Virus record (IMG/VR): IMGVR_UViG_3300042114_000139
Coordinates: 1 to 36,983 of that record
Origin: a virus
Reading direction: 5' to 3' (one strand)
DNA: 36,983 nucleotides
Part shown: piece by piece, positions 6,251 through 11,486 of the stretch
Position numbering within the stretch: the first letter of the stretch is position 1
Layout of the letters: the number at the start of each line of letters is the position of its first letter
Made by a program: the position numbers and the translations under genes
The notes under the pieces: model-generated
What the model saw: the letters and a program-made list of their open reading frames with translations, nothing else
What the model was told of the DNA's origin: nothing
Databases searched by the model: none

Positions 6251-6287
6251 CGTTTACCTTTGTCGTGATATAATTTTTGTATCGAAT

Positions 6288-6383
6288 TTATAAAACCCGT
6301 TCGGCGAGTTGCTCTAACAACTTCTCGAACTTCTCAAAACCTCTCTCAAACCTTGATAATCCGTTTTTAATCTTCTTTGCCAT
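6288..6383 (-). CDS. Tiny basic/helical protein (31 aa), first gene of the leftward operon
   Basis: The frame MAKKIKNGLSRFERGFEKFE continues for 11 more residues (KLLEQLAERVL) to a stop. AAGGAG sits eight bases before the ATG, among the best ribosome sites in this operon. The peptide is an amphipathic helix rich in K, E, R and F. It is the first translated unit after the leftward operators. No function can be assigned. Confidence 0.55.
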   Translation of the reverse strand: MAKKIKNGLSRFERGFEKFEKLLEQLAERVL

Positions 6384-6650
6384 CGTCTGCTCCTTATGTA
6401 AGTATTTAATCAGAGCAGTCTGCAGCTTACTCTCAGGTAGATACTTATCTTAAAACTCTGTGCAACAAGCAGCTGTAAGCTTTAGTGGTGCAACTACTTA
6501 CTGCATCGAGATTTAAAACCGTAGCACCGCCTCTGCGCTTTGGTATGTTGAAATTAGTCTATGGGTTGTCCAGCGTCCCAAGTTAATAAGTGAAAGAAAC
6601 TTCAAAACAAGTTCGCCTCGTAAAAGGCTGTTTTGTTTCGCGATTGAAAA
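6384..6650 (-). other. Untranslated leader of the leftward early operon
   Basis: About 270 bp with no credible gene on either strand between the operators and the first small gene. It contains inverted repeats: CAAAACA/TGTTTTG with an inner GCC/GGC pair (6603-6635), and GGTGC/GCACC enclosing about 35 bases near 6495-6540. A long structured leader at this place is where lambda-like phages carry antitermination (nut-like) signals, but no known box can be matched. The adjacent stretch to 6745 holds the operators and the promoter of the HsdR-like gene. Confidence 0.4.
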
Positions 6651-6702
6651 TGATACTATTTGTATCTTTAAATGAATATTAAATTAGATACTTTATGTAT
6701 CT
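6651..6702. promoter_or_regulatory. Left operator pair of the CI-type repressor
   Basis: Two copies of an inverted repeat with half-site GATAC and 5-bp spacer: TGATACTATTTGTATCT (6651-6667) and AGATACTTTATGTATCT (6686-6702), 35 bp apart centre to centre. The same motif occurs three more times next to the repressor gene. The pair sits between the leftward early operon and the rightward HsdR-like gene, so the repressor probably controls both. Confidence 0.75.
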
Positions 6703-6707
6703 TATGA

Positions 6708-6720
6708 GGATGTATAATTA
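6708..6720 (+). promoter_or_regulatory. Probable promoter of the HsdR-like gene
   Basis: TGTATAAT places a perfect TATAAT at 6713-6718, 28 bp before the chosen start. The second left operator ends 11 bp upstream of it and would cover the -35 region, so repressor binding should block it. Confidence 0.55.
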
Positions 6721-6745
6721 TCAATAACAATTTATGGGAGAAATT

Positions 6746-7816
6746 ATGGAATTTCACAGTGCAATACTTAATATAGTAACTAGAATTGAAAATCTTAAAG
6801 ATAAAGTCGTTACGGAAGAGGCTACAAAAACGTCTTTTATTCTTCCGATGCTAAGTGCACTTGGATATGATATATTTGATCCTACAGTTGTGGTTCCTGA
6901 ATTTACAGCTGACATTGGAAAGAAGAAGGGTGAAAAAGTTGATTATGCAATTATGAAAGACGATAAACCACTTATTCTTATTGAGGCAAAACCACACACA
7001 GAGATACTTGACCGCCATAAAACGCAGCTAGAGCGTTATTTTACCGTTACAGATAGTAAGTTTGCTATCTTGACAAATGGAATAGAGTATAGATTTTTTT
7101 CCGATATCGATAAGCCAAATGTAATGGATCAATCTCCATTTTTAGTTATAGATATACTTAATTTAAAAGACAGAGATATTAAGCAACTTGAAAAATTCTC
7201 TAATGAAGCTTTAGATATAGATAATATTTTGAGTATGGCTGGCAATAAAAAATATGTAAACAGCATTAAAGAAATTTTCAAAAAAGAAGTTGTGTCTCCA
7301 AGTGACGATATGGTTAGATTTTTTGCAACAAGAATGACTGATAAAATGCTTAGACAAAATATCTTAGATGAATTCAGAACATATACAAAACAAGCTTTTT
7401 CAGAAATAGTTAATGATATGGTGAACGATAGAATTAACTCCATCAAATCAATTGCTGAAAAAAATTCACATCCAGCAAGTGTGGAAGAGGATGAACCTAC
7501 AGATACTGTAGAAGATAATGGCATTATTACAACAAATGAAGAACTTGAAGGTTTCTTTATTGTTAAATCAATCTTAGCAGAGATAGTTCCGCTCCATAGA
7601 GTAGTGGCTAGAGATACAAAAAGCTACTTTGGAGTTCTACTGGATGATAACAATAGAAAATGGATATGCAGACTTCACTTTAATGCAAAATCCAATAAAT
7701 ATATAGGAATTCATACTTCAGATAAAGAAGAGGAGCGTTTTTCTTTGGAGCATATTGAAGATATATATAAATATAAAGCTGAAATTATAAAAACTGTAGA
7801 AAGATTAAATAGTTGA
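6746..7816 (+). CDS. HsdR N-terminal-like nuclease-domain protein (orphan)
   Basis: A 356-residue protein resembling the N-terminal nuclease domain of type I restriction R subunits (HSDR_N/COG4748 type). A PD-(D/E)xK site is visible as D66 in KVDYAI and E80-x-K82 in LILIEAKP. No helicase or HsdM/HsdS partner is encoded nearby. The C-terminal part (about 260-356) looks like a separate alpha/beta domain with WICRLHFNAKSNKYIGIHT. ATG 6746 is chosen because GGGAGAAATT precedes it; an in-frame ATG at 6734 lacks a site. Such standalone proteins are common in prophages and defence regions; their role is unresolved. The left CI operators overlap its promoter. Confidence 0.8.
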   Translation: MEFHSAILNIVTRIENLKDKVVTEEATKTSFILPMLSALGYDIFDPTVVVPEFTADIGKKKGEKVDYAIMKDDKPLILIEAKPHTEILDRHKTQLERYFTVTDSKFAILTNGIEYRFFSDIDKPNVMDQSPFLVIDILNLKDRDIKQLEKFSNEALDIDNILSMAGNKKYVNSIKEIFKKEVVSPSDDMVRFFATRMTDKMLRQNILDEFRTYTKQAFSEIVNDMVNDRINSIKSIAEKNSHPASVEEDEPTDTVEDNGIITTNEELEGFFIVKSILAEIVPLHRVVARDTKSYFGVLLDDNNRKWICRLHFNAKSNKYIGIHTSDKEEERFSLEHIEDIYKYKAEIIKTVERLNS

Positions 7817-7831
7817 ATATTAGGAAAAATT

Positions 7832-8152
7832 ATAGCACTAATAGATTGTCCGGAGTGTGGGCATAAGGTTTCAAATACGGCAGCATCTTGTCCAAGCTGT
7901 GGAGCGCCTATTGCAGAAGCACTTGGAAGTTTGGCAGCTGGTGCACCATTAACAACGGTGCAAGAAACAAGTAAAAAATTAAAGATGCATATTATCATTG
8001 CTTCTGCATTTTTTTGGATTGGAGTCATATGGCTCTTTACTAGTGCAACAAGTGTGGGCGGGAAAGCAAGTGTTGCAGCATCGTATTTAACGCTTATTGG
8101 CTTAGTATGGTACATAGTCACAAGATTTAGAATTTGGTGGCATCATAAGTAA
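7832..8152 (+). CDS. Zinc-ribbon membrane protein with ATA in place of the start codon
   Basis: The frame reads (M)ALIDCPECGHKVSNTAASC then PSCGAPI, a double CxxC zinc ribbon (residues 6-24), followed by two transmembrane segments (about 50-70 and 78-96) and a basic tail ending WWHHK. This matches the common zinc-ribbon proteins that begin MALIDCPEC. Here the codon at the expected start (7832) is ATA, with AGGA seven bases upstream; no ATG, GTG or TTG occurs in frame before a TTG at 7931, which lies after the zinc ribbon. Either ATA is used, or a G-to-A change has silenced it. It follows the HsdR-like gene by 15 bp. Confidence 0.6.
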   Translation: MALIDCPECGHKVSNTAASCPSCGAPIAEALGSLAAGAPLTTVQETSKKLKMHIIIASAFFWIGVIWLFTSATSVGGKASVAASYLTLIGLVWYIVTRFRIWWHHK

Positions 8153-8175
8153 AGTTATTATTTTAAAAGTTGCAA

Positions 8176-8727
8176 TTATTTTGAGTACAAACTTACTTTT
8201 TCTTTTGCAATTTTTTTAAAGATATCGTTTTTTGCTGACATAACTGTCTTCTTTTGCATAAGTGGGTACTCATCGTGCTGTTTAAAATATTTATCTGTTA
8301 GTCTTGTTTTATACTCCATGTGGTCTTTTCTCATAGCGTCAGCACTATAATAGCTTTTCATATTGTATTCTTTTTTAATATCTTCTATAACACTTAACTT
8401 TTGACTAGTGGAAGTGATAAGTAACAATATTTTTGGTTCTAAACTACTCTCTTTGTTTTCCATATATTTTATTGCTTTAGCATGTAGTTTTGAAAATTCT
8501 TCAGAATAGTCTTTGATTAAGTCAATAATAATTTCATTTCTTTTGTTGCTATTAGATAATTTAATATTTACAAATAATGCGAGGCCTATTGCTATAAGTA
8601 ATTGCATGAAAGGTGTTAGAAGCTGTATGATATTAAATTGAAAGAAAGATACTGGAAGTTCATGCGTAAACATCGAAGTAAAAAAGAATGTCAGCACAAT
8701 TAAAAATATGCAAACAATATATTTCAA
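8176..8727 (-). CDS. Two-TM membrane protein, third gene of the HATPase/STAS cassette
   Basis: A 183-residue protein with two N-terminal transmembrane segments (about residues 3-19 and 33-56) and a long charged helical cytoplasmic domain (60-183). The start is TTG at 8727, one base after the stop of the DUF4325 gene; starting at the first ATG would remove the first membrane segment. The 2-TM plus cytoplasmic helix layout resembles SLATT-type or other membrane effectors of defence systems, but no family match can be confirmed by eye. It is the distal gene of a minus-strand operon led by the CI repressor and converges on the zinc-ribbon gene. Confidence 0.75.
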   Translation of the reverse strand: MKYIVCIFLIVLTFFFTSMFTHELPVSFFQFNIIQLLTPFMQLLIAIGLALFVNIKLSNSNKRNEIIIDLIKDYSEEFSKLHAKAIKYMENKESSLEPKILLLITSTSQKLSVIEDIKKEYNMKSYYSADAMRKDHMEYKTRLTDKYFKQHDEYPLMQKKTVMSAKNDIFKKIAKEKVSLYSK

Positions 8728-8728
8728 A

Positions 8729-9031
8729 TTAGGCTTCTTTAATGTATGAAATTATTTCTTCTATTAAAGCTGGATCTTCATCAGATATAAAAGTAATTCT
8801 TTTAAGTACATCAGTTTTATTATACTTTCTTGCTAAACCACCAAAGCTTTCTTCTAAAAAAGATGTTGCATAGCCCTCAGTATTATCTAAATTTATTGTG
8901 ATATCTTCATTACTCTCAAAAGCTGGAACGAGTAATTCTTCTCTAAACGATTCCCCAGAGTAGTTACCATCTGTATAGTATCTAGCACCAGGTGCATCTG
9001 AAAAATCGTTAGCAATATTTATAACTATCAT
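8729..9031 (-). CDS. STAS-like DUF4325 protein
   Basis: A 100-residue protein with the DUF4325 (PF14213) hallmarks: GARYYTDGNYSGESFREELL at about 14-33 and the strongly conserved TSFLEESFGGLAR near 56-68. DUF4325 is a STAS-like fold and commonly occurs next to HATPase proteins, by analogy with SpoIIAA/SpoIIAB-type partner switching. ATG 9031 is chosen since it overlaps the TGA of the HATPase gene (ATGA), and AAGGAT lies upstream. Its role here is probably as the protein partner of the adjacent ATPase; this is inference. Confidence 0.82.
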   Translation of the reverse strand: MIVINIANDFSDAPGARYYTDGNYSGESFREELLVPAFESNEDITINLDNTEGYATSFLEESFGGLARKYNKTDVLKRITFISDEDPALIEEIISYIKEA

Positions 9032-10068
9032 TCTCCTATCCTTTTTGTAGCTTTCCATGATATTAGTGTTCCATGAAATTTTTCATTTAAGTTGTGTTTT
9101 ATATCATTAGTTGGATTAACATAGCCTTTGTTTGAAATTATAACTAAGTCTTTAATATATCCCTCTTGCGCAAGTTCATTCATCTTGGGAAGTCCTTTGC
9201 CTCTTTTTCTTTGACCAGTTTGTGTTCTAAAATCACCATTCAGAGCCGATGCAATAAGAGTATGGTCTGCAGCACCTTCACTTTGAAAAAGAAATTTTAT
9301 TTTTTCATTAAAATTTTGTCTAATAGTCTTTGGAATACCAGCTCCACTATCCAAAAATGCAAATTCTACATTACCATCTTCTGTGTAATATGCCATTAAA
9401 TACCATTTCTTTTTGTCTTTATGGCTAACTACTGCATGATTATGTGTGTTCGCCATAGCTTCTATGATAAGTGCATAAATCGCTCTAGTATTTTTATTTG
9501 ATTGTTCAATATTAAGATGTTTTTTAACATATTGCAGTACTTCTTTTGCGATTTGCGATTCTGTTTGTTCACCTTCTCTAATTGTAAAAATATCAGTATC
9601 TTTTTTGTATTTATTTTTATGGCTGCTTACATAACTTAAAAATCCGGATTCTTGAAGCATTTTTTTGCAATATTTATCTTTTGGCATATTACCTCTGAGA
9701 CTATAGTTATTGTGTTTATTATGGATCTCTTCTAGGATTAATATAAAATATAGCATTGCATCAGGAGTTATTTTCTGAACATGTTTACTATCTATAAAAA
9801 CAGGAATGCGTTCATTTACATAGTATAAAACGTCATTGAAAAAAACAATAGTTTCATCTCTATTATCTATTATACTGCATATATTTGGCATATGTAGCTT
9901 ATGTCTTTTTGCGGGCTTTGAATAGTTTGTTGACAACTCTAAAAAATTAGTATTTGGTAATGAAATATTTTTATCGTGATTATATTCCTTTGATTTTCTT
10001 TTTAGATTATGTATAAATTTTTTTTCTGCAGTAATGTCTTGATATGATTTATTTTTTACTTTTTTCAT
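9028..10068 (-). CDS. GHKL-type ATPase (HATPase) of the repressor-linked cassette
   Basis: A 346-residue protein with a C-terminal GHKL ATPase domain (about 185-346): N-box IIEAMANTHNHA (202-212), G1 box FLDSGAGIP (238-246), G2 box RGKGLPKM (289-296) and a terminal HGTLISW. There is no phosphoacceptor His domain, so it is closer to anti-sigma or MutL/Hsp90-like ATPases than to sensor kinases. The N-terminal 180 residues are unassigned and may include a STAS-like region. Its ATG is 3 bp after the CI repressor stop and its stop overlaps the DUF4325 start, so the four genes appear co-transcribed and coupled. Confidence 0.82.
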   Translation of the reverse strand: MKKVKNKSYQDITAEKKFIHNLKRKSKEYNHDKNISLPNTNFLELSTNYSKPAKRHKLHMPNICSIIDNRDETIVFFNDVLYYVNERIPVFIDSKHVQKITPDAMLYFILILEEIHNKHNNYSLRGNMPKDKYCKKMLQESGFLSYVSSHKNKYKKDTDIFTIREGEQTESQIAKEVLQYVKKHLNIEQSNKNTRAIYALIIEAMANTHNHAVVSHKDKKKWYLMAYYTEDGNVEFAFLDSGAGIPKTIRQNFNEKIKFLFQSEGAADHTLIASALNGDFRTQTGQRKRGKGLPKMNELAQEGYIKDLVIISNKGYVNPTNDIKHNLNEKFHGTLISWKATKRIGE

Positions 10069-10071
10069 ATA

Positions 10072-10665
10072 TTAAAAATCCGTATCAACTACGCCGACAA
10101 CGCGAGCCATTTTAAGGTCTGATTCATCATCTGCATGTACGGTAATGATATTAAAGTCACTATTGATTGGTACAAGCGAAATCGTGTCGCCTTTTTCATT
10201 TATCTTATATTTCTTAATGCCGCTTTCTCCATCAAGAGAGTAGTGGACAATATTGCCGTTTTCTATGTGGCGGTGTACATTACAGTAGACTATGGCGTTA
10301 TTGTTAATTTTAGGGCTCATACTATCACCCTCAGCTCTTACAGCATACATTCCTTCTTCATATATGTCTGCACTTACCGGAACAGGCTCATATCCATTTA
10401 GGTCATACTCTTGAGGTGCGCCGCATGATGCTAAACCTATGAGTGGAATTGTTCTGATTTTTGCTTTATTGTTTTCACCAAATAAATCTGAAACACTTAC
10501 TTTTAATATTTTTGATATGTTTTTAATTTGTTCCGGAGAAGGCGTTCTAATACCATTAGACCAATGAGTAACTGTACCCCGTGTTATCTCTAAAATATCA
10601 GCAATGTTTTGAGCTGTAATATTTTTTTTATTCATATAATATTTTAAGTTCTCTGCAAAAGTCAT
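10072..10665 (-). CDS. CI-type repressor with S24 self-cleavage domain
   Basis: A 197-residue lysogeny repressor. The N-terminal HTH (about 1-58) reads NITAQNIADILEITRGTVTHW. The C-terminal LexA/CI-type peptidase domain (from about 75) has a probable cleavage bond C81-G82 in LASCGAP, catalytic Ser115 in AEGDSMSP and a general-base Lys at 151 or 152. RecA-stimulated self-cleavage would induce the prophage. ATG 10665 is chosen because AGGAGAAAGT precedes it; upstream in-frame ATGs fall inside the operators. Three operator copies lie just upstream, and the HATPase cassette follows 3 bp after the stop. Confidence 0.93.
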   Translation of the reverse strand: MTFAENLKYYMNKKNITAQNIADILEITRGTVTHWSNGIRTPSPEQIKNISKILKVSVSDLFGENNKAKIRTIPLIGLASCGAPQEYDLNGYEPVPVSADIYEEGMYAVRAEGDSMSPKINNNAIVYCNVHRHIENGNIVHYSLDGESGIKKYKINEKGDTISLVPINSDFNIITVHADDESDLKMARVVGVVDTDF

Positions 10666-10682
10666 ACTTTCTCCTAAATAAT

Positions 10683-10757
10683 GATACATATTGTATTTAA
10701 TTACAAGATACATAAAGTATCTAAATTAATAATCTTTTAAAGATACTTTATGTATCC
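10683..10757. promoter_or_regulatory. Right operator region, three sites between repressor and cro-like gene
   Basis: Three copies of the GATAC-N5-GTATC inverted repeat lie at 10683-10697 (one arm ends GTATT), 10706-10722 (perfect) and 10741-10757 (last base differs). Centre spacings are 24 and 35 bp. Divergent promoters are probable: TACAAT for the repressor on the minus strand near 10690, and TAATAAT near 10726-10732 for the rightward genes. The arrangement is equivalent to lambda OR1-OR3. Confidence 0.8.
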
Positions 10758-10764
10758 TTTTGGC

Positions 10765-10998
10765 ATGAAACGAGAAATACTTAAAGAAATACTTTTAAAA
10801 CACTATGTAAATTCAGCAGCAAATTCTATTTTACGTGGAATTAGAAAACCATCGTACGAAGTCATGGTTGAGCTAGATAAAAAGCATAATATTCCTTTTA
10901 ACTCTTGGATAGATATAAAATCTTACTTACAAGAAAATGATACAAAAACCACTCCACAAAAGTCTACTACAACACCAAACGCAAAGGTATCAGCATGA
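10765..10998 (+). CDS. Cro-like small DNA-binding protein
   Basis: A 77-residue protein with an HTH-like segment (AANSILRGIRKPSYEVMVELDKKHNIPFNSW in pattern) and a polar tail rich in T, K and P. As the first rightward gene divergent from the repressor it sits in the cro position. The start is uncertain: ATG 10765 gives MKREILKEIL, while ATG 10750 lies inside the third operator; neither has a clear ribosome site, so a very short or leaderless mRNA is possible. Its stop overlaps the next ATG (ATGA). Confidence 0.75.
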   Translation: MKREILKEILLKHYVNSAANSILRGIRKPSYEVMVELDKKHNIPFNSWIDIKSYLQENDTKTTPQKSTTTPNAKVSA

Positions 10999-11486
10999 AC
11001 GACTACTTAAATAACAAAGCATCAAAAGACGCAAAACTAAGCCAGCTCATCCGCAAAACTATCACGGTAAACCGCAAAGAGATAGGTTTAGAGTTTGAAG
11101 ATGTGGCGCATGAGCTTGGTATGCAACCGGGAACGCTTCAAAACAAGCTCAAACCTGCGATGCAGACAAATGACATGAGTATTACTGAGTTTGTACACTT
11201 TTTGGAACTCACAGGCGACTATAGCGCGCTTGAATACATAGCGAATAAGTTTGACTGCGTTTTAGTACACAAGAAACAGGCTCAAGCTTCACACACAAGT
11301 ATCAAGATACTTGTAGATACAGCGAACATAGAAAACGCAGAAGTTTTTAAAGCTGTGACTATTGCTTTGTCAGATGGCAACATCTCAGACGAAGAACGAG
11401 AGATCATACTCAAAGAGATAGACGAAGCTCAAAAAGCAAACGCAGAACTCAAAGACTTAGTGCAACACTTGGGAAGCAAGGAATAG
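10995..11486 (+). CDS. CII/CP76-like phage regulatory protein
   Basis: A 163-residue protein with an N-terminal HTH (FEDVAHELGMQPGTLQNKLKP, about 36-55) followed by ITEFVHFLELTGDYSALEYI, the pattern of phage regulatory protein CII-type (PF06892) families. The C-terminal half contains SDGNISDEEREIILKEIDEA, a helical, TerB-like or EF-loop-like stretch. Its position directly after the cro-like gene matches lambda cII. It probably activates lysogeny genes or adjusts early transcription; targets are unknown. Confidence 0.8.
   Translation: MNDYLNNKASKDAKLSQLIRKTITVNRKEIGLEFEDVAHELGMQPGTLQNKLKPAMQTNDMSITEFVHFLELTGDYSALEYIANKFDCVLVHKKQAQASHTSIKILVDTANIENAEVFKAVTIALSDGNISDEEREIILKEIDEAQKANAELKDLVQHLGSKE

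Follow-up and report, generated by a model that had tools for sequence, protein, structure and literature searches.

In the window analyzed here, the 36,983-nt virus record IMGVR_UViG_3300042114_000139 at its full length, the CI repressor gene stands first in a run of four minus-strand genes (8176-10665) and is followed by a GHKL-type ATPase (K), a STAS-like DUF4325 protein (S) and a small membrane-anchored protein (M). Judged by gene order and homology, K, S and M form a conserved cassette rather than a chance neighborhood, and this cassette recurs at accessory-gene sites in quite different phages, on plasmids and in bacteria. We infer from these comparisons that it is the same switch as VapKSC with another third part, and so probably a relative of this recently described anti-phage toxin switch. 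Our preferred interpretation, which we regard as reasonably probable, is that the cassette acts as a lysogeny-expressed stress or defense switch in which a kinase releases a membrane effector.

Searches with single proteins returned no relatives of K or M among phages, of K or M among viral contigs, or of K among genome contigs. Relatives of K were found on three plasmids, where a STAS-like gene and then a short open reading frame (ORF) for a membrane-anchored protein come next in every case. Together with the window and four further loci on phages and plasmids, two of them reached through K and two through DUF4325, these gave eight seed loci, all of which carry the trio (8/8), the hydrophobic stretch of L007 (L numbers denote loci) being slightly below threshold. 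A DUF4325 alignment of four seeds was then used to draw a test set of 110 loci, made up of 30 viral contigs and, from 345 bacterial loci, the 80 best; these are nearest relatives, near-copies included, and because DUF4325 alone governed their selection, the other two genes are fairly tested in them. K lies directly upstream of S in 96 of the 110, with three more cut at a contig edge, and in 80 of the 93 test loci that have K and sufficient downstream room, the ORF next after S clearly encodes an N-terminal transmembrane (TM) segment. When test and seed loci are combined, K is present in 104/118 and a clear TM segment in 87/101 (one segment in 44, two in 42, three in 1), and the third ORF starts at -59 to +59 bp (n = 100). 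Control tandem genes of 120-230 aa from the same loci encode a TM segment in 35 of 199 cases (17.6%). On the Novosphingobium plasmid at L003, the third ORF (6270-6821, +) has a TTG start 2 bp past the STAS gene and is absent from the annotation table shown.

The reverse search, from the third gene, leads back to the same unit. Among 229 genomes from the L073 class, which we take to be Gammaproteobacteria, a one-TM profile found four matches, all adjoining a DUF4325 gene (4/4); among 247 genomes of the class of L113, presumably Bacteroidia, a two-TM profile found seven, five of which had E<1e-5 and lay directly after DUF4325. The remaining two were weak, noise-like matches in genomes without an S match. 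One match in each set is the center genome, itself part of the profile, leaving three and four independent matches. All seven DUF4325 genes of the L113 class have the third gene beside them, two of these having been found on inspection. In the L073 class, DUF4325 occurs at 41 places in 34 genomes; six of 30 fetched loci match the cassette DUF4325 profile well, and five are full cassettes (one being L073 itself). At the sixth (L150, 562-1743, +), the kinase frame is broken in two and no third gene was found; it has apparently decayed. The initial annotation had taken the trio for a unit and named non-conservation of the two-TM gene as one observation that would refute its reading; what we see instead is a membrane gene at 80/93 test loci and in 7/7 S-bearing genomes among 247.

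Third proteins of 120-230 aa (n = 100) cluster into a one-TM family of 46, a two-TM family of 44 that includes window M, and 10 singletons. The two families remain homologous when their TM parts are removed (hhalign probability 93.5, E 2.3e-7), against a probability of at most 0.2 for 20 column-shuffled controls and 0.9 for a reversed one. The idea that small membrane proteins stand behind S by mere chance was rejected in view of this homology of the cytosolic parts and of the control TM rate of 35/199. Window M has two hydrophobic segments with Kyte-Doolittle (KD) values of 2.3 and 1.53, and no match in Pfam, PADLOC or PHROGs at E<=1. The possibility that M belongs to a known toxin or channel type was also rejected: Pfam searches of 42 two-TM members and of L073 alone from the one-TM family, NCBIfam searches of 37 one-TM members, and PDB-profile searches for both families gave only scattered weak matches or matches to coiled coils and TM segments. 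A PIN domain was found neither in window M (Pfam E<=1) nor in the 42 two-TM family members (E<=0.01).

Window K scores only 0.043 with the Pfam HATPase_c model, under the family cut-off, and we call it GHKL because of motifs conserved in its relatives and of its structural matches. Conservation of residues E203, N207, D240, G242 and G292 extends to 99 of 100 sequences. The K structure model (mean pLDDT 87.9, built with 83 sequences) matches SpoIIAB best (1til_E, Z 14.5 over 136 residues at 2.9 A), with RsbW at Z 12.1; the first matches outside the anti-sigma kinases are Leptospira LvrC (Z 10.4) and the histidine kinase ThkA (Z 9.7), and Foldseek agrees (1th8_A, 4.7e-6). K is therefore presumed to be an anti-sigma-type Ser/Thr kinase resembling SpoIIAB and RsbW. 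Its N-terminal part is probably STAS-like, profile positions 71-148 giving a weak alignment with SpoIIAA (E 0.84-0.93).

For S, an upstream ATG at 9058 is a possible alternative start, and residues are numbered from it (109 aa). The structure model (mean pLDDT 94.7) has its best matches in RsfB (Z 6.7) and RsbV (Z 6.4), and its top 13 structural rows are all of STAS type, comprising antagonists, stressosome proteins and sulfate-transporter-type entries, the last of which presumably carry STAS domains; Foldseek returned no match with E below 0.2. The protein ends with the STAS fold, and a helix begins at residue 65. This residue is Ser or Thr in 90 of 97 sequences (near-copies included), Ser66 is kept in 95, and at least one of the two is present in all 97, making Thr65 and Ser66 of the model candidate phospho-acceptors. 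The phosphoserine of SpoIIAA sits on the helix corresponding to the one opened by these residues. In CapS, too, this helix carries the phosphoserine (PMC13373217). S of the cassette also has an N-terminal signature (R26, G31, S34, G35, F38, R39), which perhaps serves M binding. The initial annotation had proposed that ATPase and STAS protein form a partner switch, and gene anatomy gives this good support, the fold models resembling an anti-sigma-type kinase and its substrate. Of the 41 DUF4325 matches in the L073 class, 15 lie in frames of 344-399 aa (e.g. L122, L123, L124, L129), which suggests a fused kinase-DUF4325 architecture; PHROG 5816, to which window S matches, has 441 positions.

The closest precedents for such a switch are CapKS and VapKSC (PMC13373217, EMBO J 2026). 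CapK phosphorylates CapS in the presence of single-stranded DNA (ssDNA), and VapK, itself not assayable, is proposed to phosphorylate VapS likewise; VapS is the antitoxin of VapC, and a phosphomimetic VapS fails to hold VapC (PMC13373217). Against phage Bas42, the vapKSC operon provides protection of about 2 logs, which is abolished by mutation of any of its three genes (PMC13373217). The initial annotation knew of no characterized system with this trio; for the ATPase/STAS pair this no longer stands, CapKS and VapKSC following the same logic and VapKSC being phage-protective, and the main text of PMC13373217 contains neither the word "transmembrane" nor "DUF4325". It is the only account of an immune GHKL/STAS switch found among open-access papers (subscription papers and preprints lying outside the search), in which no paper joined STAS-like, ATP-binding protein, transmembrane and prophage either, and two papers mentioned DUF4325 by name. 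A figure legend of the DefensePredictor paper (PMC13092281) lists a HATPase, which may or may not belong to this trio, among the predicted systems.

Two further loci connect the cassette to VapKSC. At L139 (859-2637, -), in a genome of the L073 class, the cassette K profile finds a kinase at 7e-11 over nearly its full length, the second protein exceeds the Pfam DUF4325 cut-off (3.4e-13), and the third is a PIN protein (1.1e-11); at L151 (1938-3784, +), on plasmid P5 of Deinococcus gobiensis, the genes are annotated ATP-binding, STAS-like and PIN. By gene content, both operons have the VapKSC layout, and it is because K and S of L139 are homologous to those of the cassette, with a PIN protein third, that we read the cassette as a VapKSC-like switch. 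Cassette and VapKSC share the gene order K, S, third gene; a K made of a STAS-like region and a GHKL domain, the STAS part of cassette K being on weaker support; and an S of STAS type whose second long helix begins with a conserved Ser/Thr. The PIN-linked S of L139 itself belongs to DUF4325. Escherichia VapS is the top PDB match of the S profile (9z7o), although a weak one (E=0.079), and in the alignment window T65 faces the presumed Ser48 of VapS (a numbering that assumes an 18-residue tag). The systems differ in the third gene, a PIN RNase in VapKSC and a membrane protein in the cassette, and in the N-terminal signature of S, which is mostly missing from L139, the one PIN-linked S aligned. 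In CapKS, too, the gene for a STAS-GHKL kinase precedes that for its STAS substrate; however, CapK carries an added helix-turn-helix (HTH) and CapS a winged HTH, whereas K and S have no Pfam HTH match at E<=1, and CapKS represses a downstream immune operon, whereas the third gene of the cassette lies within the unit. The kinase fold of K clearly resembles SpoIIAB and RsbW, and the fold of S their substrates SpoIIAA and RsbV with middling Z; those pairs control sigma factors, and none was seen in the cassette, where no search was aimed at sigma-factor targets.

These comparisons suggest the following scheme, in which the silencing of M by S and its release by K are modeled on VapKSC because of that precedent. 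The cassette would be expressed in the lysogen from the CI transcript, and in the resting cell S would bind and silence M, a small inner-membrane protein. K would sense an infection or damage signal, for which ssDNA, as for CapK, is our default guess, and would phosphorylate S on the Ser/Thr with which its second long helix begins. Phosphorylated S would free M, which may stop growth or harm the membrane, such that the incoming phage would fail and the siblings of the prophage survive. In its broader form, to which we give an even chance, the proposal is that the cassette represents a third, widespread branch of GHKL-kinase/STAS immunity, in which S, once phosphorylated, unleashes a membrane effector rather than an RNase or a transcription program, and which very different temperate phages have taken up at accessory-gene sites that include the lambda rex position. 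If true, this would add a membrane output to a signaling logic that was not published until 2026, and several different phages would have common, testable content at their rex position; it would also gather many operons annotated "ATP-binding protein / STAS-like / hypothetical" into one testable family.

The genomic positions of the cassette are varied. It directly follows the repressor in the window, in Marinobacter phage AS1 (L005), in contigs L018, L019, L025 and L031, and in Pasteurella L007; the CI proteins of L018 and L019 are identical to that of AS1 (100%), and no phage record matched S of L007 at 1e-3. Francisella phage vB_FhiM_KIRK also appears to carry it after the repressor, judged from table order (PMC7924643): Fhv_0045-0048 are listed as CI (S24), a 293-aa protein resembling AS1 (23%), DUF4325 and a TM protein, genes that are annotated with no role proposed in those table passages. 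In L014, L017 and L028, the cassette is flanked by P2 gene A on one side and the portal gene Q on the other, with only the Q side visible in L015; we take this site to be the tin region, a known accessory and defense site. In Rac-like prophages (L020-L022, L038 and E. coli records), it is found between a DUF977 (ren-like) gene and hokD, and in L016, L029 and L030 it adjoins an integrase. Of the 30 viral contigs, 15 could be placed; with several near-copies among them, they represent four kinds of site rather than 15 events. The remaining 15 include short contigs and contigs that lack K. Further copies are found on plasmids (L002, L003, L004, L008) and on chromosomes. One whole version at >=99% identity is carried by 24 of 5,426 complete E. 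coli genomes, and all three genes are annotated intact in the two of these that were inspected, whereas the L017-type cassette was not found in the 5,426 at megablast sensitivity. The co-occurrence beside repressors that the initial annotation proposed to look for is seen in some other phages, while many copies lie elsewhere.

Several results weigh against the preferred reading of a defense switch with a membrane effector. By the criterion used, K is missing from 11 of the 110 test loci, although one of these (L096) scored in another scan; the third gene falls under the TM threshold in 12 of 93 loci (nine at KD 1.09-1.48, and L077, L084 and L088 clearly lower), and L045 has no third ORF (1/93). 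The fold scores of S (Z 6.7; Foldseek E 0.2 or worse) are middling and insufficient by themselves to establish its fold. The aromatic residue required for ssDNA sensing (W68 in CapK, F54 in VapK) has no clear counterpart in the cassette, the presumed equivalent tryptophan of L139 K aligning with a non-aromatic column (window K99) in an equivalence drawn through L139 only; the trigger may therefore differ from that of CapK. Two E. coli Rac-like prophages carry it downstream of the early genes, on their strand, with no CI gene ahead of the cassette, and S24 matches occur in 4 of 11 cassette-bearing viral records, none adjoining the cassette, so that the CI-operon position is one of several. Around 71 chromosomal cassettes, PADLOC models at 1e-8 numbered 401 for the 129 nearest genes and 115 for 103 genes >3.5 kb away, tallies that count models, many of them redundant, rather than genes and that render a defense neighborhood suggestive only. 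Pfam assigns the 129 near genes to S24 (3), resolvase/recombinase (2), integrase (2) and assorted methylase or restriction genes, and to housekeeping enzymes too. At one locus (L153, 115-453, +), an ORF about 0.6 kb from a cassette resembles, by eye, part of a TIR domain.

M has no recognizable toxin domain in the Pfam, NCBIfam and PDB-profile searches, and a sensor or anchor role is possible, which again speaks against a membrane effector. M could then be the input: it would sense phage attachment or DNA entry at the membrane and control K, and K and S would act elsewhere, for instance on the transcription machinery of host or phage, by stressosome or sigma-factor logic. Classical GHKL/STAS switches do regulate sigma factors, and SpoIIAB and RsbW are the best matches of K; on the other hand, no recurrent fourth gene is visible in the unit, and VapKSC-type operons have a PIN protein in third position; we consider this arrangement unlikely. 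The copies on plasmids and phages and the compactness of the three often overlapping genes would also suit a selfish stabilization module of mobile elements, similar to a toxin-antitoxin system, with no real phage defense. The phage accessory-gene sites and the protection conferred by VapKSC favor defense instead, though the two are compatible, and we consider a purely selfish role improbable. Position behind the repressor in the window, AS1-type phages, L007 and KIRK could alternatively indicate that K and S sense damage and tune CI or the induction of their own prophage; this we regard as very improbable given the many copies away from any repressor, at the P2 A-Q and Rac ren-hokD sites and on plasmids and chromosomes.

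In the window itself (Table 1), the initial annotation of four minus-strand genes encoding CI, a GHKL ATPase, DUF4325 and a two-TM protein is borne out by the coordinates, with a 3-bp gap between CI and K, an ATGA overlap between K and S and a 1-bp gap between S and M. The CI start was taken at the M of MTFAENL, its ORF being open up to 10713. The presence of an integrase, tailed-phage head and tail genes (terminase, portal, tape measure) and CII indicates that the phage is temperate. Ten operator-like matches counted by strand, at seven places, compare with a mean of 1.69 and a maximum of 5 in shuffled sequences. Within 7900-11100, the only two terminator-like sites lie beyond the run (11019-11077), and promoter-like sites number 13 against 18.0 +/- 4.1 in shuffles, no excess; the gene anatomy makes cotranscription of cI, K, S and M likely, and the absence of an internal terminator-like site and of a promoter-like excess fits a single transcript without proving it.

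Table 1. Features of the gene run and the surrounding immunity region, in window coordinates.
Feature	Coordinates	Strand	Evidence
CI-type repressor (HTH + S24 peptidase), first in run	10072-10665	-	Peptidase_S24 PF00717 2e-18, HTH_3 PF01381 1.9e-9; PHROG 4 8e-33
K: presumed Ser/Thr kinase of 346 aa, GHKL domain (SpoIIAB/RsbW type) behind a STAS-like N-terminal region	9028-10068	-	PHROG 3364 7.5e-46; structure matches
S: DUF4325 STAS-like protein, presumed kinase substrate	8729-9031	-	PF14213 3.2e-16
M: presumed effector, helical protein with two TM anchors and a helical domain in the cytosol; TTG start	8176-8727	-	KD hydrophobicity, family membership
CI/Cro operator-like palindromes, three, in the gap between CI and the cro-like gene	10683-10697, 10707-10721, 10742-10756		Palindrome matches
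cro-like gene, divergent from CI, probable start 10765	10750-10998	+	Position and operators; no Pfam match
OL-like operator-like sites, two, bounding the immunity region on the other side	6652-6666, 6687-6701		Palindrome matches

The lambda genes rexA and rexB lie behind cI in the immunity region, are cotranscribed with it and exclude other phages, with a membrane protein as effector. As judged from the operator-like sites, the run occupies the operator-bounded immunity region, i.e. the rexAB position of lambda, and the genes likewise follow cI in the same run with a membrane protein last, while the cassette differs in comprising three genes with kinase logic. The rexAB parallel drawn by the initial annotation holds for the position behind cI; no Rex family appears among the PHROGs matches of K, S and M at E<=1 (PHROG 3364, PHROG 5816 and none, respectively; no direct alignment with RexA or RexB was made). 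The parallel is thus an analogy of position. The same immunity region contains, convergent with the cassette, an HSDR_N-only endonuclease gene (6734-7816, +; PHROG 4225, 2.3e-129), which may be under CI control because two CI-operator-like sites (6652-6701) lie directly upstream. Between the endonuclease gene and the cassette, a small ORF (~7841-8152, +) encodes, by eye, a CPECG...CPSCG zinc-ribbon and TM-like segments; its listed TTG start at 7931 falls past the zinc-ribbon, which is in frame upstream.

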